The translations under genes were made by a program, and so were the position numbers. This document shows, piece by piece, positions 24-8,284 of a DNA stretch of 64,000 bases. The notes under the pieces were generated by a model. It was not told the DNA's origin. It was given only the letters and a program-made list of their open reading frames with translations, and ran no database searches. Source of the DNA: Polynucleobacter sp. IMCC 30228 (GTDB lineage: Bacteria > Pseudomonadota > Gammaproteobacteria > Burkholderiales > Burkholderiaceae); NCBI RefSeq assembly GCF_021395205.1, contig NZ_JAJVCS010000001.1, positions 620,001 to 684,000 of the forward strand, in the 5' to 3' direction. Numbering within the stretch: the stretch's first letter is position 1; each line of letters opens with the position of its first letter.

Positions 24-485
24 ATGCAACTAGATGCCATTGATTTAAGAATTTTGCAAGAACTGCAAAAAGACAGTTCACTCAGTAATGTGGCCTTGGC
101 TAAGCGCGTGCATTTATCACCTTCACCTTGTTTATTGCGAGTGCGCGCGCTAGAGGCGAACCAAGTAATTCAGCGCTATGTGGCCTTGGCTAACCCCAAG
201 GCCCTGGGACTTGATTTAAATGTATTTATTTCGATCAGCCTAAAAGAGCAGTCAAAAACTGCGCTCGCTGAATTTGAACAGTGTATTGCCGAGCAACATG
301 CGGTAATGGAGTGCTATTTGATGACCGGCGATTGTGATTATTTAATTCGAGTTGCTGTATCCAATATTAGCGATTTAGAAAAATTTATTCTTGAGCAATT
401 AACTCCCATTGCCGGCATTGAAAAAATTCGCTCCAGTTTTGCATTAAAGCAAGTTTCTTACAAAACTGCTTTGCCTTTGCCGTAA
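24..485 (+). CDS. Lrp/AsnC family transcriptional regulator
   Basis: A 153-residue DNA-binding regulator. Residues 1-60 form the AsnC-type winged helix-turn-helix, beginning with the typical MQLDAIDLRILQELQ. Residues about 70-145 form the RAM effector-binding domain, with the family signature MTGDCDYLIRV near residue 101. Length is normal for the family. These proteins act in the cytoplasm as dimers or octamers and sense amino acids or related small molecules. It is convergent with the oxidoreductase that follows, with a 20-base gap. The target and ligand cannot be read from sequence; local control of the adjacent metabolic genes is possible. The upstream region is cut by the window edge, so its promoter cannot be judged, and no clear Shine-Dalgarno is present. 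Confidence 0.9.
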   Translation: MQLDAIDLRILQELQKDSSLSNVALAKRVHLSPSPCLLRVRALEANQVIQRYVALANPKALGLDLNVFISISLKEQSKTALAEFEQCIAEQHAVMECYLMTGDCDYLIRVAVSNISDLEKFILEQLTPIAGIEKIRSSFALKQVSYKTALPLP

Positions 486-505: not shown

Positions 506-1846
506 TCATTTTTTAAACATGGACTCCATCTCGCGTCGTACTCGAATTGCTTCATTGTTGATATCAAAATTGACATCGTTCCAGCATACTGGTTTGCCAG
601 CAGCAACAGCATTTTTGAGCGTCAGGCGGTGTGCTAACCCAATGGGTAAGCCACCCATTGCCAAGGAATCAGTGGCAGGCATTAATTTACCGTAAACCGT
701 AAAACCACCTTCGCCATCGAGCATTTCTCCAGCCTTTAAGTCACGTTTAGCCGTGGCTACGACGTCACCGCTAAAGGCGGTAGTAGCACCCGTGGCTTCT
801 TTGCGCAAGGCCACGCTCGCAACCGAGATGCCTAACTCAAGACCAATTAAATGATATGGTTTATACATTGCCGCATACCAGCCGCTCGCATCAGTTTTCA
901 GGCCATATTGCAAGAAGCAGTTACGCACATATTCGTTCGGCGCTTCAAAAACAATATAAACGCCCCAACGTAAATCTCGAAAGACAGGGCGACCATCACG
1001 CTCAACAGAAGAAACTACTTCAACTGTGCCTTTAAAGGGCAAGATGCCGCCATCAGCCTCTGGCCGTAAGATGGTAGGCAGATCATCAACCCCGCAGGGC
1101 GGAAATAACAAGCCATTTTTTGGGGGTCGCAAACCACAGGCATTCGATACCGCAGCCATTTCAAGGGCAGACTTGGTGCCATCTAAAAATGAATTAAACA
1201 TTTGGGCATTAAAGTCTCCGCTACCAACTTGCTCTGGGGTAAATCCATAGTGCCCCCATACTGTGTCTGGAGTGGCTTGGTGATAGATCGGTAAATATTT
1301 AGTGCCTTTGCCTGCACACACCACATCCATACCAATCGTTTCGGCCCAATCAACTAATTCAGCAATTAAGGATGGTTGATCGCCAGATGCCATTGAATAA
1401 ATAATGCCAGCATCAGCTGCTTTTTTAGCTAGGTAGGGGCCCGCAAGTACATCAGCCTCTACGTTCACCATGATGATGTCTTTACCATGTTCGCAGCATT
1501 TCAAGGCGTGGTGAATGCCTGCTGCTGGACTTCCAGTGGCATCAATAATGACTTCAATTTGCGGATTGGCGATCATGCCATCAGCATCATCAGTAATGAA
1601 TGTTTTGCCAGTTTGATACGCATTCTCAAAAGAAGACGCGTTGTATTGCACGGCGTTCCAACCCACACGGGCTAAAGAATCACGCGCCCGTTGCGGCACT
1701 AAGTCGGCAATACCTAATAAATGAATGCCAGGGGTTCTTGGCACTTGGGCTAAATACATTGAGCCAAATTTGCCCGCACCAATAATGCCTACTCGTACCG
1801 GCTTACCTGCCGCCGCGCGTTGTTTGAGTTGTTGAATGAGGGACAT
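506..1846 (-). CDS. NAD(P)-dependent oxidoreductase with C-terminal SAF domain
   Basis: A 446-residue protein. An N-terminal Rossmann fold carries the dinucleotide motif GAGKFG at residues 23-28 and an acidic residue in IADL (46-49), which suggests NAD. The middle resembles the homoserine dehydrogenase/Gfo-Idh-MocA catalytic domain. Residues about 360-425 look like a SAF (antifreeze/FlgA-like) domain. Proteins of this architecture are often loosely labelled homoserine dehydrogenase-like or FlgA-like. Their substrates are mostly unknown and are probably sugar- or hydroxy-acid-derived. GAAAGG lies just upstream of the ATG and supports the start. The gene is divergent from the dioxygenase across a 205-base gap, so shared regulation is plausible. 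It is not the biosynthetic homoserine dehydrogenase, because the ACT domain is absent. Function assignment is generic. Confidence 0.8.
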   Translation of the reverse strand: MSLIQQLKQRAAAGKPVRVGIIGAGKFGSMYLAQVPRTPGIHLLGIADLVPQRARDSLARVGWNAVQYNASSFENAYQTGKTFITDDADGMIANPQIEVIIDATGSPAAGIHHALKCCEHGKDIIMVNVEADVLAGPYLAKKAADAGIIYSMASGDQPSLIAELVDWAETIGMDVVCAGKGTKYLPIYHQATPDTVWGHYGFTPEQVGSGDFNAQMFNSFLDGTKSALEMAAVSNACGLRPPKNGLLFPPCGVDDLPTILRPEADGGILPFKGTVEVVSSVERDGRPVFRDLRWGVYIVFEAPNEYVRNCFLQYGLKTDASGWYAAMYKPYHLIGLELGISVASVALRKEATGATTAFSGDVVATAKRDLKAGEMLDGEGGFTVYGKLMPATDSLAMGGLPIGLAHRLTLKNAVAAGKPVCWNDVNFDINNEAIRVRREMESMFKK

Positions 1847-2051
1847 AACAAACCTTTCAATAAGAGTGCTGCTATTTTCACATTTTTTAGTTGGCGTAGG
1901 TTTATCAATTGCAGACTTAGTTCAGGTAGGGCGTCGGGTCAGCCTAGGGCTTTCCCTGATGGTAGTTGATTACAGGCCTGACTTTTAACCCTCTAACTGA
2001 TTAATTGATTACACTTTCACCTATTGTTAAAAAGAATCGACGAGGTCAAAA

Positions 2052-2915
2052 ATGCATTTATCTCCAGAACAACTAGCCCAGTTTGATAAAGCAGGTTATT
2101 TATTCTTTCCCAGCTTATTTAGTCCTAGTGAAGTGAAAACCCTGACTGATGCCGTCCCTGAGCTTTATAGTCGAAAAGAAGCTTATAACGTCCGTGAAAA
2201 AGACAGTGAATCGGTGCGCACCAATTTTGCCGCGCATCTAATTAGCAGGCCATTTGCTAAATTGGGAAAACATCCCAGAATGATTCAACCAATTGAAGAT
2301 TTATTGGGCGAGCAGTTATATATGCATCAATTTAAGATTAACGGCAAGATGGCTTTCGATGGCGATGTTTGGCAGTGGCACCAAGATTATGGTACTTGGT
2401 TAAACGACGATTTGATGCCTACCGCGCGGGCGATGAACGTGGCAATTTTTTTAGATGATGTCAATGCCTTTAATGGCCCACTGATGTTTATTCCAGAAAG
2501 TCATAAACGTGGTGTGATCGCTGCCAAACATGATTTAACTACGACCAGCTATCCATTATGGACAGTAGACAACGATTTAATTTCGCAATTAGTAGCTCGT
2601 GCAGGCGGCAAAAACGGCGGCATTATTAGTCCCACTGGGCCTGCAGGTTCAATGATTTTATTTCACAGTTGTTTAGTCCATGCTTCCACAAGTAATTTAT
2701 CGCCATGGAATCGGGTCAGCGTCTATTTAAGTTTATGTGCGGTGTCGAATCATATTCGTCGGCATAAACGTCCTGAATATATTGCCCATCGTAATTTTGA
2801 GCCCATCGTATGTTTGCCGGACGATTGTTTGTTAACCGATTATCCAGTTGATGTGCCATGGGAGCATGGAGTTCCAGCAAGCGCTTTAGAGACTTCGCTT
2901 GAGACTATTGCTTAA
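2052..2915 (+). CDS. EctD-like phytanoyl-CoA dioxygenase family protein
   Basis: A 287-residue non-haem Fe(II)/2-oxoglutarate dioxygenase. The iron facial triad is visible as H110 and D112 (in VWQWHQDYGTW) and H210 (in LFHSCLVHAS). R221 (in NRVSVYLS) is the likely 2-oxoglutarate carboxylate binder. Neighbouring phrases (HQFKINGK, NGPLMFIPESH) resemble the ectoine hydroxylase branch of the PhyH family. However, no ectABC genes are present here, so ectoine hydroxylation is not supported. The expected reaction is hydroxylation of a small polar metabolite, coupled to oxidation of 2-oxoglutarate to succinate. GAGG 8 bases upstream supports the start. It is followed after 12 bases by the unknown 186-residue gene and then by an ApbA-type reductase, forming a likely operon. 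Confidence 0.85.
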   Translation: MHLSPEQLAQFDKAGYLFFPSLFSPSEVKTLTDAVPELYSRKEAYNVREKDSESVRTNFAAHLISRPFAKLGKHPRMIQPIEDLLGEQLYMHQFKINGKMAFDGDVWQWHQDYGTWLNDDLMPTARAMNVAIFLDDVNAFNGPLMFIPESHKRGVIAAKHDLTTTSYPLWTVDNDLISQLVARAGGKNGGIISPTGPAGSMILFHSCLVHASTSNLSPWNRVSVYLSLCAVSNHIRRHKRPEYIAHRNFEPIVCLPDDCLLTDYPVDVPWEHGVPASALETSLETIA

Positions 2916-2927
2916 AGGAAGATATCG

Positions 2928-3488
2928 TTGAATAAGTCTGAAAAACAAGCGCAAAACTATCGCTTAAAACTTGAAAAAACGGCCAAACCCCTGCTGATTG
3001 TGGATTACAGTTTTGGGGGCGATACAGTATTAGAGCGGATGAAGGTAGCGCCATTACCGAGTGCAATTCAGAATGCGAAGGTGAAGACCGAGTTTGATTT
3101 AGCCCAAGCCTGGAGTAATTTCGCAAGGAAATCTTTGGGCCAGCGCAAATTGGCCGAGTCTGAGATTGAGTGTTGGGATGGTCATTACGACCAATTGGGT
3201 CGAGTGATGCTGGAATTAATGCGCATGAGCAGAGATAAGCCAGAAATGCTTACCAAAGAAGGGGTGTATGAAATGATTCCAGATTTAGAGGAAATCACAT
3301 TCATTGCTAAGCCAGGGCGAATTGAAGATAAGATGTTTGTTCGTATTTGGTTTTCATTAATTCGCCATCCGGCATTTCTTGAGCTGGAAATTCATGAAAA
3401 AGAAGTCGTTGCATTTCAATATTGGCAAAACCTATTTACTTTGGCTTTAGGTAAAACAAATAGTGAGCTACTGAAGCAAAACGCTTAG
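2928..3488 (+). CDS. hypothetical protein, 186 aa, unrecognised
   Basis: I do not recognise this protein. It begins with TTG, preceded by a strong AAAGGAAG ribosome site 7 bases upstream, and starts 12 bases after the dioxygenase stop, so it is very likely co-transcribed. It is soluble: no signal peptide and no membrane segment. It is charged and probably mostly helical (an amphipathic N-terminus rich in K, Q and E, then a W/D/H-containing centre around IECWDGHYDQLGR, residues 80-92). No nucleotide-binding or catalytic motif is evident. Its tight linkage to a PhyH dioxygenase and an ApbA-family reductase suggests an accessory or substrate-binding role in the same pathway, but this is only contextual. 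Confidence 0.75.
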   Translation: MNKSEKQAQNYRLKLEKTAKPLLIVDYSFGGDTVLERMKVAPLPSAIQNAKVKTEFDLAQAWSNFARKSLGQRKLAESEIECWDGHYDQLGRVMLELMRMSRDKPEMLTKEGVYEMIPDLEEITFIAKPGRIEDKMFVRIWFSLIRHPAFLELEIHEKEVVAFQYWQNLFTLALGKTNSELLKQNA

Positions 3489-3509
3489 ATTGCGGATTAA
3501 GCGTGCCAA

Positions 3510-4430
3510 ATGAGTAAAAAAATGAAAATATTAATTGTTGGGGCAGGTGGTATTGGCGGCTACTTTGGTGCAAAACTGATTCAGGTGGGCGCCGATATTA
3601 CGTATCTATTACGCCCTAAACGCCATGAGTATATTCAAGCCAATGGCTTAACGATTGAAACTCCACGAGGCAGTTTTGTTCTTCATCCAAAATCGATTAC
3701 CTTAGATCAATTAGAGCCTATTTATGATCTGGTTATTTTGGCGCCAAAAGCATTTGATTTAGCCAATTGTTTAAATGAACTCGAAAAAGTTGGCCCAAAA
3801 GCCCTATTCTTACCCTTTTTAAACGGCCTTACGCATCTCGATGCCTTGGACCAGCAATTTGGAAGAGCCCGTGTCATGGGGGGCGTGGCACATATTGCCG
3901 CAATGATTACGGAAGTAGGTGCGGTAAAGCAATTAAGCGATTTACATATTCTGACGGTTGGGCATCGGGCGCCCGAGCAAGAGGCGATAGCGAGAGCATT
4001 TTTTGCGCTATGTGAAAAAGCCGATTTCGATCACTTTTATAGTGAGCAAATTGAGCAGGCAATGTGGGATAAATGGGTTTTCTTAGCTAGCTTAGCTGGT
4101 ATGACAACCCTTTGTCAGGGCTCAGTTGGGCAAATAGTTGCTACGCCGTATGGACAAGAGTTGTCGTTAGAGATGTATGCAGAATGTTGCGCAATAGCGC
4201 AAGCAAACGGATTTTCAATAGCAGAGCAAGCACGTAAAAAAGCTATCGAGTTATTGACCCAGGTAGGCTCCCCATTTACGGCCTCGATGTTACGCGACCT
4301 AATCGCTAAGCAAAAAACAGAACACGAACATATTTTGGGTCAAATGATTCAAAAAGGGATGAGCATTAAGGTGTCGTGCCCATTGGTGAAGATGGCCTAT
4401 ACCCATATGGCGGTGTCAGCGCAGCAATAA
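3510..4430 (+). CDS. ApbA/PanE-family 2-oxoacid reductase (ketopantoate reductase-like)
   Basis: A 306-residue enzyme. The N-terminal Rossmann motif GAGGIGG (residues 11-17) is the family NADPH site. K80 in ILAPKAFDL and K188 in MWDKWVF match positions of conserved lysines in ketopantoate reductases. A C-terminal helical domain follows. The family reduces 2-ketopantoate or other 2-oxoacids to 2-hydroxyacids. panB lies far away at 50972-51784, and this gene is third in a likely operon with a dioxygenase, so it may be a paralogue acting on another 2-oxoacid rather than the pantothenate-pathway enzyme; sequence alone cannot decide. A strong hairpin terminator begins at the stop codon. Confidence 0.85.
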   Translation: MSKKMKILIVGAGGIGGYFGAKLIQVGADITYLLRPKRHEYIQANGLTIETPRGSFVLHPKSITLDQLEPIYDLVILAPKAFDLANCLNELEKVGPKALFLPFLNGLTHLDALDQQFGRARVMGGVAHIAAMITEVGAVKQLSDLHILTVGHRAPEQEAIARAFFALCEKADFDHFYSEQIEQAMWDKWVFLASLAGMTTLCQGSVGQIVATPYGQELSLEMYAECCAIAQANGFSIAEQARKKAIELLTQVGSPFTASMLRDLIAKQKTEHEHILGQMIQKGMSIKVSCPLVKMAYTHMAVSAQQ

Positions 4431-4457
4431 AAAAGCGCCTTTTTGAGGCGCTTTTTT
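4429..4457. terminator. bidirectional intrinsic terminator
   Basis: An 11-bp perfect stem runs from AAAAAAGCGCC (4429-4439) through a TTTTTGA loop to GGCGCTTTTTT (4447-4457). A U-tract follows on either strand, so it can end both the rightward dioxygenase-reductase operon, whose stop codon it overlaps, and the leftward TRAP operon ending at 4491. Confidence 0.9.
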
Positions 4458-4490
4458 ATTTATCAAAAAAAGTATTTTTAATCGAGCTTT

Positions 4491-6374
4491 CTAGCCCCCA
4501 TAAAGAAACTTAGGCAACCAGAGAGTCATACCAGGCCATATATACATAAAGAACATACATAGAATGACGATGAACATATACGGCATCATGCCCGCAAAAA
4601 TTTGATTCAGAGTGACACTTGGCGGTGATACCCCTTTAAGATAGAAGGCTGACATCGCCACTGGTGGCGATAAGAAAGCGGCTTGCAAATTCACAAAGAC
4701 CAAGGTGCCCCATAACAAAGGATCGATTTGGAAGTGCGCTAACAATGGCAAGAAGATCGGCACAAAAATCACAATGATCTCAGTCCACTCCAAAGGCCAG
4801 CCAAGGAAGAAAATAATTGCTTGCGAAAGCAGCATGAACTGAATCGGCGTCAGATCTAACATGAGCACCCATTTTTCAATGATCGATTGACCACCCAAAA
4901 TCGTGAATACAGCAGAGAATAAAGCTGATCCAACGAACAGCCAACACACCATTGAGGTAGTTTTAGCAGTAAGAAAAACCGCCTGCTTGGTGCGATCAAA
5001 ATTTAATGTGCCCGCTTGAAACGCCAGAATAAAAGCACCAAAAGCACCCACTGCTGCCGATTCAGTTGCGGTGGTAATGCCTAGCAAGATCACAGCTAAA
5101 ACCAAAATAGTGAGAATACCCAAGGGCATGACGGATTCGATCAGCAGTTTCAAAATTTCAAACTGATCTTCATCGAGTTTGATGTAGTAGTAAATCAGCA
5201 GCAAGAGTAGTAGAACAGAGCTAAGCCCAAAATACAGTTCAAAGTTTTCCGGCGGCCCAGCAGCCGCTTCAGGCTCGGCAGCCCCAGCAGTGGGCGCATC
5301 ACCCGCCGCTGCATCTAGCGCTACTAATGGCACATCTACCTCTTCAAGCTCTTTGGTTTTTACGTTGTTGGAGGTGGCATCCAGTGAAACTAAACCTTCT
5401 TCTACAGGCGCAGCTTTATCAGCTGTAGCCACCTTAGCAACTTGCGTAGCTACAGGGACATTTTGTGCATCGCGTTCAGCTTGCTGATGAATGATGACGT
5501 ACCACCATACTCCCCATAAAGTGACTGCAGCAAGAATAAATGGAGTTAAGACTGCCAGTACATTTTGGACAATTTTGCCAAAGGAGAGGCGTGCATCAAC
5601 AGGTGCATCGAAAAACTTCGCCGGTGCAAATAGGGCTTTAAAAGTTGCCACAAACATATTGGGTGAATACTGTTCACGCAAGAAACGGATAGGGGCTGGA
5701 ATAGGCACCTGTTGTTTTTCAGGGGGCAGTTTAGGCGCTACTTTAGGATTTATTAAGGCCCAGCCGATGATGTAAACCAAATATAAAAATGCGAGAAAGA
5801 AGCCTGGCACCATCGCAGCTGCATACAGTTTCACCACCGATTGACCAGCGACCGCTGCGTACACAATAATCATTACTGAAGGTGGAATCAAAATACCCAA
5901 GGTACCACCAGCGGTAATAACACCAGCTGCTAAGCGCGTATCGTAGCCCGCATTCATCATGGGCTTCATGGCGATAACGCCCATTAGCACTACAACTGCA
6001 CCAACTAGACCGCTGGCAATACCCCAAAATGTACAAACAATTAAGGTTGCGACAGCAAGCGATGCAGGTACGCGACGAAAGGCAAGCTGAATGCTATAGA
6101 ACATTTTGTCAACTAATGCCCCTCGCTCCATTACATAGCCCATTAAAACAAATAAGGGAATAGACAGCAGGACATCGTTGGTCATACCCCCAAATGTTCT
6201 TTGCACCATCAGGGTAAATACCTTATTAGCTGTCCAGCTTTGTGATGGGTCATAAAAGGCGGCAAAACCAAACATCATGCCAAGCCCCATTAAGGTAAAA
6301 GCAGTTGGGAATCCCAACATAATCACCACGATAATCAGGCCCAACATACTTAGGCCAAGTATTGGATCACTCAT
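4491..6374 (-). CDS. dctM: TRAP transporter large permease DctM, with unusual central insertion
   Basis: A 627-residue membrane protein, the large (transport) subunit of a TRAP secondary transporter, which imports organic acids with sodium. Canonical DctM features flank the centre: N-terminal GFPTAFTLMG, AGGTLGILIPPSVMIIVYA (about 155-173), and later GITTATESAAVGAFGAF (432-448). DctM proteins are usually about 425-450 residues. Here about 190 extra residues (roughly 211-405) sit between the two halves. They contain two additional predicted membrane helices (about 272-296 and 380-399) around an 80-residue acidic Ala/Pro-rich linker. An even number of added helices preserves the topology of the second half. 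The start overlaps the dctQ stop by 8 bases (ATGAGTGA), indicating translational coupling. Confidence 0.93.
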   Translation of the reverse strand: MSDPILGLSMLGLIIVVIMLGFPTAFTLMGLGMMFGFAAFYDPSQSWTANKVFTLMVQRTFGGMTNDVLLSIPLFVLMGYVMERGALVDKMFYSIQLAFRRVPASLAVATLIVCTFWGIASGLVGAVVVLMGVIAMKPMMNAGYDTRLAAGVITAGGTLGILIPPSVMIIVYAAVAGQSVVKLYAAAMVPGFFLAFLYLVYIIGWALINPKVAPKLPPEKQQVPIPAPIRFLREQYSPNMFVATFKALFAPAKFFDAPVDARLSFGKIVQNVLAVLTPFILAAVTLWGVWWYVIIHQQAERDAQNVPVATQVAKVATADKAAPVEEGLVSLDATSNNVKTKELEEVDVPLVALDAAAGDAPTAGAAEPEAAAGPPENFELYFGLSSVLLLLLLIYYYIKLDEDQFEILKLLIESVMPLGILTILVLAVILLGITTATESAAVGAFGAFILAFQAGTLNFDRTKQAVFLTAKTTSMVCWLFVGSALFSAVFTILGGQSIIEKWVLMLDLTPIQFMLLSQAIIFFLGWPLEWTEIIVIFVPIFLPLLAHFQIDPLLWGTLVFVNLQAAFLSPPVAMSAFYLKGVSPPSVTLNQIFAGMMPYMFIVILCMFFMYIWPGMTLWLPKFLYGG

Positions 6375-7035
6375 GGTTTATTTCCTTCGTTTGGCCAATG
6401 CGGTGATGTGCCGCTTCATCAATTGCTTTAGCATTTTTCATACCCATTTGACGAGCCTCTTCATCAACGTGGGTTGAGGCCGCAAGTTGTTGCTCAATTA
6501 CATCAATTTCTTCCGCATCTTTTAAGCGTGCTGGCCATTCACCTGTTTTGATACAAACAATGCAGCGCAAAATTTCGACAAAACCTTGGAGGAGTACAAA
6601 AGCACCAGCAATTGGAATAATGGTTTTAAAAGGATACAAGGGCGGCCCATTGGCGATTTGGGTGGTGTGTTCACCTATGCGCCATGATTCAGCCGCATAG
6701 GTGTAGCCCGCATATACCAATGCAGTTATGCCCGGCAAGAAAAAGGTAATGTACAGAATTAAGTCAAGAGTGGCTTGGGTGCGTGGTTTCATTGAGCCAT
6801 AGAGGAAGTCGCCCCGTACGTGCCCATTTTGTGCCAATGTATAGGCCCCGCACATCATAAAGAGCGTGCCATAGGCCATGACCGACAGTTCGCCAATCCA
6901 TGCTGATGGAGAATTCAACGCATAGCGTCTAACCACATCGGTACACACCATCAGCATTAATAGAATGATGAGCCACGCAGCCGCCTTGCCAACAAAGGTG
7001 CTGATCTCATCGACTCTAAGCATGAGCTTATTCAT
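6367..7035 (-). CDS. dctQ: TRAP transporter small permease DctQ
   Basis: A 222-residue inner-membrane protein with four hydrophobic segments in the first 175 residues (about 15-35, 45-70, 85-115, 140-165). The DctQ-typical phrase VCTDVVRRYALNSPSAWIGEL falls near residues 31-51. The C-terminal 50 residues are charged and cytoplasmic-looking, longer than in most DctQ proteins. It partners DctM to form the membrane part of the importer. GGGAGG upstream of the ATG gives a strong ribosome site. The gene is separated from dctP by 115 bases that hold a perfect terminator, so the permease genes are probably expressed at a lower level than the binding protein. Confidence 0.92.
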   Translation of the reverse strand: MNKLMLRVDEISTFVGKAAAWLIILLMLMVCTDVVRRYALNSPSAWIGELSVMAYGTLFMMCGAYTLAQNGHVRGDFLYGSMKPRTQATLDLILYITFFLPGITALVYAGYTYAAESWRIGEHTTQIANGPPLYPFKTIIPIAGAFVLLQGFVEILRCIVCIKTGEWPARLKDAEEIDVIEQQLAASTHVDEEARQMGMKNAKAIDEAAHHRIGQTKEINHE

Positions 7036-7088
7036 TCATTACCTCCCAATAAAACTTGACTAAATAACAGTACTATTTAAATTACTAT

Positions 7089-7119
7089 AAAAAAACCGGA
7101 CGGTGAACCGTCCGGTTTT
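7089..7119 (-). terminator. intrinsic terminator/attenuator between dctP and dctQM
   Basis: A perfect 12-bp inverted repeat has arms at 7092-7103 and 7108-7119 and a 4-base loop. On the minus strand it reads CCGGACGG-TTCA-CCGTCCGG followed by seven Ts. It lies between dctP and dctQ in the direction of transcription, so it should end most dctP transcripts and let a fraction continue into dctQM. Confidence 0.9.
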
Positions 7120-7150
7120 GCATCAGCATGAACCATTTAGTTGATAAACA

Positions 7151-8284
7151 TTAGGCTTTAGGTTGACTGTCTTTGAAATAATGATCGTAGGCGATCTTAA
7201 AGTCAACATCCGTCAAGAGTTGCCAACGCACTGCACGTTGAGCAAAGGCTTTTTGTGAATCAAGCACTTTCTTAAACATGGCATTTTCAGCTGCTTTTTT
7301 GGCAATAATTTTGTCCCAAGCATTTAACTGAGCTACCAAAATGGATTTCGGTGTTGCATAAAACTTCACCTTATCTTTGGTTTGCAACTCAACAAAGTCT
7401 TTTGAGTAACGATCGATTGCTTTCCAAGACATATCGGCTGAAGCAGCTTGGGTGGCGATTGAGAGAATTGAACGCAAATCAGGCGCTAATGAATCGTATT
7501 TCTTTTTGTTAAAGATGATTTCAAATTGCTCTGAACTTTGGTGAAAGCTTTGCAGCATATTGATCTTAGAAACATCTGGGAAGCCTAGCAAGCGATCGGA
7601 AGAGGCGTTATTAAATTCAGCAGCATCTAAGAGACCACGATCCATCGCGGGAATAATATCGCCACCAGGCAGGGCCTGAACTGACGCGCCCATATCGGTA
7701 AAGATTTCAATTGAGAGGCCAACAGTACGGTACTTTAAGCCCTTCATATCTTCTGTTTTAGCAATTGGCTTTTTAAACCAACCAAGTGGCTGAGTTGGCA
7801 TTGGGCCATAAGGGAATGACACGACATCCAATTTCAAGCCAGAATAAATTTCGTTTAACAGTTGTTGGCCACCACCATATTGGTTCCATGACAAAACGGT
7901 ATTGGCATCCATACCGAAAGCTGGGCCTGAACCCCATAATGCCAACGCAGCACTTTTACCGTACCAATAAGCCAACACACCATGACCGCCATCTAATGTT
8001 CCACTTGAAACCGCATCAAGTAGATCAAAGGCTTTAACAACTGAGCCAGCTGGCAACACTTCAATTTTGAGGCGACCGCCCGACATCGCATTGACTTTGG
8101 CAGCGTAGTCGTTGGCATATTCATGAAAGATATCTTTCGTAGGCCAGGTTGACTGAAAGCGCAAAGTAATAGTTTGTTGCGCTTTCGAAATCATTGGGAA
8201 TCCGAGAGCAGCTGCGCCAACGGAGCCAGCAGCAGCACCTTTTAAGAATTTACGACGTGGAACTTGGTTTTTAATTTCAGACAT
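7151..8284 (-). CDS. dctP: TRAP substrate-binding protein, TakP/DctP6-like (2-oxoacid/2-hydroxyacid type)
   Basis: A 377-residue periplasmic binding protein that delivers substrate to DctQM. The N-terminus has a twin-arginine-like signal (R10-R11, RRKFLKGAAAG) with a likely cut after ISKA (about residue 35). Residues GPMPTQPLGWF (160-170), R186 in YRTVGL and AEFNNASSDR (222-231) recall the TakP/lactate-binding branch, known to bind 2-oxoacids or lactate with a metal ion as a dimer. The conserved Arg would hold the substrate carboxylate. Substrate prediction is by resemblance only. GGGAGA upstream supports the start. The gene is first in dctP-dctQ-dctM, with a candidate promoter and a palindromic operator in the 129-base leader region. 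Confidence 0.92.
   Translation of the reverse strand: MSEIKNQVPRRKFLKGAAAGSVGAAALGFPMISKAQQTITLRFQSTWPTKDIFHEYANDYAAKVNAMSGGRLKIEVLPAGSVVKAFDLLDAVSSGTLDGGHGVLAYWYGKSAALALWGSGPAFGMDANTVLSWNQYGGGQQLLNEIYSGLKLDVVSFPYGPMPTQPLGWFKKPIAKTEDMKGLKYRTVGLSIEIFTDMGASVQALPGGDIIPAMDRGLLDAAEFNNASSDRLLGFPDVSKINMLQSFHQSSEQFEIIFNKKKYDSLAPDLRSILSIATQAASADMSWKAIDRYSKDFVELQTKDKVKFYATPKSILVAQLNAWDKIIAKKAAENAMFKKVLDSQKAFAQRAVRWQLLTDVDFKIAYDHYFKDSQPKA

Follow-up and report, generated by a model that had tools for sequence, protein, structure and literature searches.

A PhyH-family dioxygenase conserved beside a DXR-II-like oxidoreductase in Polynucleobacter and other bacteria: a candidate module for hydroxylation and oxidation of a small amino acid

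Layout of the locus

The locus described here lies at the start of a 64,000-nucleotide stretch of the genome of Polynucleobacter sp. IMCC 30228 (contig NZ_JAJVCS010000001.1, positions 620,001 to 684,000), which is referred to in full as the window. It centres on a gene for a PhyH-family dioxygenase (PhyH) and a divergently transcribed gene for a SAF-domain oxidoreductase, probably of the DLO2 group of DXR-II-like enzymes and termed DLO2 below. A first-pass annotation, made from the sequence alone, had grouped both with a 186-amino acid (aa) protein of unrecognised type, an ApbA-type reductase and a tripartite ATP-independent periplasmic (TRAP) importer, as genes that could together take up, hydroxylate and reduce or oxidise a small carboxylate. 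All of these genes are present where they had been placed. The PhyH-DLO2 pair and its upstream neighbours are as follows, with positions given within the window unless stated otherwise.

G000:C8:617277-619919, just upstream of the window, divergent from the Lrp gene: AceE-like E1 (TIGR00759)
24..485, plus strand: Lrp/AsnC-family regulator, divergent from the AceE-like gene (PF01037, 69.8 bits; HTH_24)
506..1846, minus strand: SAF oxidoreductase, DXR-II-like and probably DLO2, NAD(P)-dependent, with a C-terminal SAF domain (PF21135; 3upl/3upy)
1847..2051, unstranded: divergent intergenic region of 205 bp between the oxidoreductase and PhyH genes
2052..2915, plus strand: PhyH-family Fe(II)/2-oxoglutarate dioxygenase, GriE/H11/EctD-like (PF05721; H110, D112, H210, R221, R240)

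The Lrp gene and the AceE-like gene, the latter just outside the window, were both missing from the first-pass annotation, and the set of partners it considered was to that extent incomplete. The upstream AceE-like E1 exceeds the cut-off of TIGR00759 (1262.4 against 859.9 bits) and falls just under that of TIGR03186 (1406.6 against 1408.3), while a second AceE, 54 % identical to it, is encoded elsewhere in the same genome. Two imperfect direct repeats occur in the divergent region (14 nt at 1887/1917 and 12 nt at 1963/2002), and no inverted repeat was found in these 205 bp. The G+C content of the PhyH gene is 0.427, compared with 0.465 for the window, and the gene is not marked as foreign by its base composition.

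The PhyH and DLO2 genes are coupled across genomes

Pairing was counted by tblastn or genome-level protein searches and not from maps of open reading frames (ORFs), since the ORF caller hides genes where the GC content is high. Searching genome contigs with PhyH gave 580 confirmed stretches, the best 80 of which were kept and form the basis of all counts out of 80 below. An oxidoreductase gene flanks PhyH in 77/80 of these loci, lying downstream and co-directional in 76 and divergent in one, L044, a close relative of the window. The gap between the co-directional genes has a median of 32 nt, with 63 within 60 nt and a maximum of 1,369 nt. In the three loci where no oxidoreductase was seen, 75 nt (L107), 2.6 kb (L111) and 10 kb (L094) of sequence are available past PhyH.

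The same association emerges from two genome samples. Among 300 genomes of the order (the PhyH and oxidoreductase searches being taken as covering the same 300, since the genome handles agree), PhyH at an identity of at least 61 % occurs in 42 and a close relative of the window oxidoreductase in 71. DLO2 is encoded in 42/42 of the genomes with PhyH as opposed to 29/258 of the others, and 40/43 scored PhyH places lie within 1 kb of it; a PhyH fragment (G241:C498, 76 % identity) was left out of this count as another fragment of the same genome had been included, and its addition would give 40/44. Among 398 genomes of the phylum, with PhyH scored at an E-value of 1e-60 or better and the window and G351 scored from the order sample, DLO2 is adjacent in 17/18 PhyH genomes and 6.4 kb away in the eighteenth. 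Fourteen of these eighteen lie outside the order, in five families, and thirteen of the fourteen are paired, in four families. The pair is also carried by an alphaproteobacterial plasmid (L147). The coupling of PhyH to the oxidoreductase, including the divergent one which the first-pass annotation had grouped with it, is thus secure. The adjacency of the two genes across diverse bacteria suggests that the enzymes carry out neighbouring steps of one breakdown route. No description of this pairing was found in the literature searched, a body from which most subscription journals were absent, and it is apparently undescribed.

Three contigs with the pair (L056, L064 and L075) are titled Akkermansia muciniphila or Bordetella parapertussis. 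Their pairs group with metagenome-assembled genomes of Limnohabitans or Alcaligenaceae, and the record titles look wrong.

PhyH has been joined to different oxidoreductases

In eight loci compared with the window (Limnohabitans, Polaromonas, Variovorax, Ramlibacter, Piscinibacter and three others), the PhyH proteins are 80-83 % identical to that of the window and the oxidoreductases only 54-56 %, a disparity which indicates that PhyH has changed oxidoreductase partners. In G327 and G190 the two proteins share comparable identities with those of the window (66-69 % for PhyH and 66-68 % for the oxidoreductase). A DLO2 tree, constructed by a quick method without bootstrap, rooted at the midpoint and not including G327 and G190, places the window copy in an eleven-row group (SH-aLRT 99) with relatives from PhyH-less members of the genus and a Caballeronia plasmid, while most of the PhyH-linked members fall in a separate group of 86 rows. 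Within the genus, a close PhyH occurs in 3/56 genomes and the oxidoreductase in 16/56. On these comparisons, the simplest reading is that PhyH came by transfer to a site beside a resident oxidoreductase, and that the pairing was then kept.

The dioxygenase is related to amino acid and ectoine hydroxylases

The dioxygenase matches PF05721 with 103.7 bits (cut-off 22). The PhyH Fe(II)/2-oxoglutarate superfamily is characterised by an HxD...H iron triad and a 2-oxoglutarate-binding arginine, and the corresponding residues picked out by the first-pass annotation (H110, D112, H210 and R221) do not vary across an alignment of 34 sequences that includes the window copy. The resemblance to EctD noted there extends to the shared branch and a similar signature region, but the protein falls far below the equivalog cut-off of the ectoine hydroxylase model (TIGR02408; 150.8 against 336.5 bits), and an ordinary ectoine hydroxylase is ruled out on this curated threshold. 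Ectoine synthase (PF06339) was not found in the same genome, in a search for which no control genome gave a match.

By sequence, the solved structures closest to it are those of the proline hydroxylase H11, GriE and EctD. H11, a trans-3/4-proline hydroxylase, is the best match among PDB sequences (7dzz and others; E-value 5.5e-49) and is about 31 % identical to the window PhyH. When a structure model of PhyH was compared by fold, the L-leucine complex of GriE ranked highest (Z 19.0, root-mean-square deviation 2.5 Å over 217 residues, 32 % identity), followed by H11 (Z 16.7-17.8) and EctD (Z 14.1-15.8), with the next rows at Z 13.2 and lower. GriE, an L-leucine 5-hydroxylase (5nch/5nci/5ncj), belongs to the same PhyH branch and shares the iron and 2-oxoglutarate ligands. 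Its Arg242 forms a salt bridge with the product carboxylate (PMC5676206). R240 of the window protein, also invariant in the 34 sequences, aligns with this residue, with a three-residue offset read from the iron ligand. Since R240 matches a carboxylate-binding arginine, a small free carboxylate may be expected as the substrate and, by analogy with the relatives, this is most likely an amino acid. The two enzymes differ in that only about one third of residues are identical and that the segment T164-T171, invariant in the PhyH family of the window, is unlike GriE in the alignment. Furthermore, the GriE pathway employs the zinc dehydrogenase GriF (PMC5676206), whereas the partner of the window PhyH is DLO2.

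Two plasmids carry more distant PhyH relatives. On Trichormus plasmid C (L148), a protein of 39 % identity is encoded among genes of the non-ribosomal peptide synthetase (NRPS) type, as expected of a GriE-like amino acid hydroxylase. A relative of 37 % identity on Cupriavidus necator pBB2 (L149) adjoins a succinate-semialdehyde dehydrogenase gene near a transhydrogenase operon, and no DLO2 is annotated next to it.

The oxidoreductase probably belongs to the DLO2 group

The oxidoreductase has the domain set of the DRL-type enzymes: a Rossmann NAD(P)-binding domain (PF03447; 27.5 bits, cut-off 24), a DRL catalytic domain (PF21135; 197 bits) and a weakly matched SAF domain (22.0 bits, cut-off 21). 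Its solved relatives are 3upl and 3upy (E-value 1e-62), the latter being the DXR-II of Brucella (PMC3847144). The 2013 study in which the DXR-II-like group was defined divides it into DXR-II, DLO1 and DLO2, and its DLO2 list includes members from Polynucleobacter and Polaromonas JS666 (PMC3847144). Placement of the window enzyme, DXR-II-like and with a SAF domain, in DLO2 is probable and rests on this published listing of genus members, the tree described above having no DLO1 or DXR-II anchors. A JS666 record (L090) carries the PhyH-oxidoreductase pair, which does not imply that its oxidoreductase is the JS666 gene of the published list. The available text of that study (PMC3847144) gives DLO2 no function and makes no mention of a link to PhyH or AceE.

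The structural match raises the question of whether the enzyme is an alternative 1-deoxy-D-xylulose 5-phosphate (DXP) reductoisomerase (DXR) of isoprenoid synthesis. Alignment with 3upl shows that both fosmidomycin-anchoring lysines (Lys191 and Lys193) are kept, but two DXR-II residues are replaced in the window copy, Thr229 by Ser and Arg320 by Lys. Furthermore, the genome encodes a canonical DXR at another site (PF02670, 168.3 bits), and four DLO1/DLO2 representatives did not complement a dxr mutant (PMC3847144). On the last two grounds the DXR role is considered ruled out, and any residual chance of it is negligible.

Gene neighbourhoods of DLO2 and PhyH

Forty-five loci were processed in a survey of DLO2 neighbourhoods, of which 38 displayed DLO2; the seven without a DLO2 ORF were excluded. 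An AceE-like gene lies directly upstream of DLO2 on the same strand in 6/38 (four of the genus of the window and two of family f18), and in a seventh locus (L203, family f38) one ORF intervenes. A divergent lrp gene adjoins the AceE-like gene in six of these seven loci, and in L160 the contig begins inside an E2-like gene. All four genus loci have such an E2-like gene ahead of AceE; the one scanned scored 439.9 bits against TIGR01348, below the cut-off of 552.1. None of the seven AceE-DLO2 genomes showed a close PhyH. Around PhyH, AceE-like genes occur in the flanks of 9/80 loci and lrp in 8/80, genera other than that of the window included, while a GarR-like reductase gene is found downstream in 18/80.

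In Pseudomonas putida, methionine is degraded by the mdeAB-mdeR system, which combines an AceE-like E1 with an Lrp-type regulator. The window locus shares these two components and differs in the additional presence of DLO2 and PhyH; no methionine gamma-lyase gene was seen beside AceE.

Other neighbours of DLO2 are more varied. They include genes for a cystathionine beta-lyase (L189; TIGR01324, 485.6 against 365.9 bits), a succinate-semialdehyde dehydrogenase scoring over its cut-off (L188), a LivK-like binding protein (L163; 127.5 bits, below the cut-off of 477) and MetQ-type transport (L150). In four loci of one family of the order, f23 (L185, L189, L192 and L209), the oxidoreductase gene is followed directly by a gene of a single cluster, the scanned member of which is the cystathionine beta-lyase of L189, and in L185 and L192 it is preceded by a GarR-like reductase gene. 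Genes for 5-oxoprolinase, which were set aside, occur near DLO2 in L150 and L205. Among the mapped PhyH loci of the phylum sample, a regulator gene of one cluster (c2) is found nearby in 12/16, and the four members scanned are all of the GntR/FCD type. A DctP-like gene lies near the PhyH-DLO2 pair in 6/14 loci outside the order, the two scanned both matching PF03480. With five of these six from one genus, we make no claim of a TRAP-PhyH-DLO2 operon as a general arrangement.

An adjoining oxo-acid-related module

Downstream of PhyH lie the remaining genes of the first-pass grouping.

2928..3488, plus strand: 186-aa protein with a TTG start, of a genus-only family under purifying selection (ORF; dN/dS)
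3510..4430, plus strand: ApbA/PanE-type 2-oxoacid reductase of the ketopantoate reductase family (PF02558/PF08546; TIGR00745)
4426..4460, unstranded: bidirectional intrinsic terminator between the ApbA and TRAP genes (hairpin prediction)
4491..6374, minus strand: TRAP large permease DctM, 627 aa (Pfam)
6367..7035, minus strand: TRAP small permease DctQ (Pfam)
7151..8284, minus strand: TRAP solute-binding protein DctP, probably of the keto-acid-binding type (PF03480; solved relatives)

The run described in the first-pass annotation was recovered, with gaps of 12 nt between PhyH and the 186-aa gene and 21 nt between the latter and ApbA, the oxidoreductase divergent from PhyH, and the TRAP genes (4491-8284) on the strand opposite to ApbA. 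It ends, as had been stated, in a terminator, a bidirectional hairpin at 4426-4460 (-20 kcal/mol, z -5.56) which is absent from the list of a generic terminator scan and was found by a separate hairpin analysis.

The 186-aa ORF is a real gene under purifying selection, as nonsynonymous change is strongly suppressed among its homologues (ratio of nonsynonymous to synonymous substitution rates, dN/dS, of 0.02-0.11 in the 7/15 comparisons with unsaturated dS). Its family was found in 13/150 relatives, all from the single genus of 56 genomes, and in the order sample it occurs only in the genome of the window itself. No Pfam match to it was seen in domain scans of the window proteins, and searches of Pfam, NCBIfam, PHROGs, PDB sequences, plasmids and the 300 order genomes gave only chance-level matches besides its own copy, the best having E-values of 0.033 in Pfam (4/13 members), 0.12 in PHROGs and 0.43 among PDB sequences. 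An AlphaFold2 model built from the thirteen genus sequences had a mean predicted local distance difference test (pLDDT) score of 42.8 and was set aside. One genus copy (L012; G069:C42:1973-2515) has an in-frame TGA, which points either to decay of the gene or to an error in the assembly.

ApbA carries both PF02558 and PF08546 and exceeds the TIGR00745 cut-off (188.7 against 141.35 bits). The best solved relatives of the TRAP solute-binding protein include 2hzk, named as a sorbitol/mannitol binder (SmoM) and which we take to be the keto-acid binder TakP, and, in sixth place, 7ug8, titled 'Ketoacid-binding protein'. These relatives fit the earlier suggestion that the adjacent importer handles oxo acids, and suit an ApbA-type 2-oxoacid reductase. 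In DctM, the DctM family matches two separate stretches; genus relatives are of approximately the same length, and the long middle segment seems common to them.

The 186-aa protein is tied to the TRAP importer and not to PhyH. Its gene adjoins a TRAP permease gene in 14/14 loci (at most 117 bp away in eleven, while in three ApbA intervenes and the distance is about 1 kb) and lies beside ApbA in 10/14, while PhyH is present in the available flank in only 4/14, all of the lineage of the window, several of the other contigs being short. The joining of this module to PhyH therefore looks recent or local. Together, the 186-aa protein, ApbA and the TRAP importer form a second, oxo-acid-related module which abuts PhyH-DLO2 here and could feed the same pathway or a different one. 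The first-pass grouping thus holds in one part, the PhyH-oxidoreductase unit that stays linked in relatives, and fails in the other, as the presumed PhyH-unknown-ApbA unit is scattered. A single route served by PhyH, the 186-aa protein, ApbA and the oxidoreductase and fed by the TRAP importer would accord with the packed run shared by the window and its close relatives L124 and L125. It is largely contradicted, and we hold it improbable, given the confinement of the 186-aa protein to one genus, the ten of fourteen loci where its gene lies beside TRAP genes with no PhyH in the available flank, the occurrence of PhyH and the 186-aa gene without ApbA in L044, and the failure of the 186-aa and ApbA queries to match, at 1e-10, any of the other 79 PhyH loci outside the lineage of the window.

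Proposed role of the PhyH-DLO2 module

From the paired genes, the ligands of the dioxygenase, its nearest relatives and the DLO2-AceE/Lrp linkage observed in several loci, we propose that PhyH and DLO2 constitute a module in which a small amino acid is first hydroxylated and then oxidised in an NAD(P)-linked reaction, the product passing to a 2-oxoacid dehydrogenase. PhyH would hydroxylate a small free amino acid or a similar zwitterionic carboxylate, and DLO2 would then oxidise, or oxidise and rearrange, the hydroxylated product in an NAD(P)-dependent step. In the lineage of the window, where an AceE-like 2-oxoacid dehydrogenase E1 occurs with an Lrp-type regulator, the carbon would probably be funnelled to acyl-CoA. 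We infer the amino acid substrate, the order of the steps and the catabolic, not biosynthetic, use. Among the readings considered, this amino acid one has the best support, at about even odds (a probability of roughly 0.48). A more specific version is tentative and somewhat doubtful: an undescribed oxygenase-initiated amino acid route in which a GriE/H11-like PhyH is followed by DLO2 and, in some lineages, by an Lrp-controlled AceE-like complex, with DLO2 as a flexible partner, the one hydroxylase having become associated with members of several distinct DLO2 groups.

Several observations weigh against the proposal. The window pair is divergent and does not form one operon, and no DLO2 is found within 10 kb of PhyH in L094, while over 2 Mb separates the two genes in G112, G240 and G337, all of a single genus. 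Nine of the fourteen PhyH genomes outside the order come from one genus. An AceE-like gene accompanies PhyH in only 9/80 loci and a GarR-like reductase gene in 18/80, the rest showing neither, and neighbours were identified at only a minority of the DLO2 loci surveyed. The PhyH structure model is mediocre (mean pLDDT 64.3), and no pocket-level claim is drawn from it. We know of no substrate for any DLO2. Finally, ten of the 30 plasmid records with DLO2 were opened, and several alphaproteobacterial ones show clusters resembling those for sugar acids, with genes for TRAP importers, class II aldolase, sugar-phosphate isomerase, SMP-30 lactonase or dihydroxy-acid dehydratase; these neighbours point to sugar acids or hydroxy acids.

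The plasmid clusters would favour a different substrate, a sugar acid or short hydroxy or oxo acid imported by TRAP, with DLO2 as a sugar-acid oxidoreductase and PhyH opening a side entry. The DctP-like genes near PhyH-DLO2 outside the order, and the adjacent window TRAP system with its keto-acid-type relatives, would agree with this. The concentration of those DctP-like loci in one genus, the closeness of the PhyH branch to amino acid and ectoine hydroxylases, and the AceE and Lrp genes at several DLO2 loci of the window's order argue otherwise, and we regard such a substrate as unlikely. The pair might also be biosynthetic and, like EctD and GriE, supply an amino acid in hydroxylated or oxidised form for use as a building block or protective solute. 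GriE itself belongs to a biosynthetic gene cluster whose pathway hydroxylates leucine and then oxidises it to an aldehyde (PMC5676206), and the distant PhyH relative of L148 lies in an NRPS cluster. The linkage to an AceE-like E1, lrp and a GarR-like reductase, among neighbours annotated in part, looks catabolic instead, which leaves a biosynthetic role with a low probability.

While the enzyme families concerned are ordinary, their conserved pairing is apparently the new element. If true, an oxygenase-initiated route would provide a first function for the uncharacterised DLO2 family, which is sister to an isoprenoid enzyme and has a close relative of the window copy in 71/300 genomes of the order. 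The hydroxylase link, kept through a change of partner, together with the link to an AceE-like gene, forms a concrete and testable lead to the DLO2 reaction, and offers a hydroxylase family related to known amino acid hydroxylases. Such a route would show freshwater and soil bacteria investing oxygen and 2-oxoglutarate in the initial attack on a compound.

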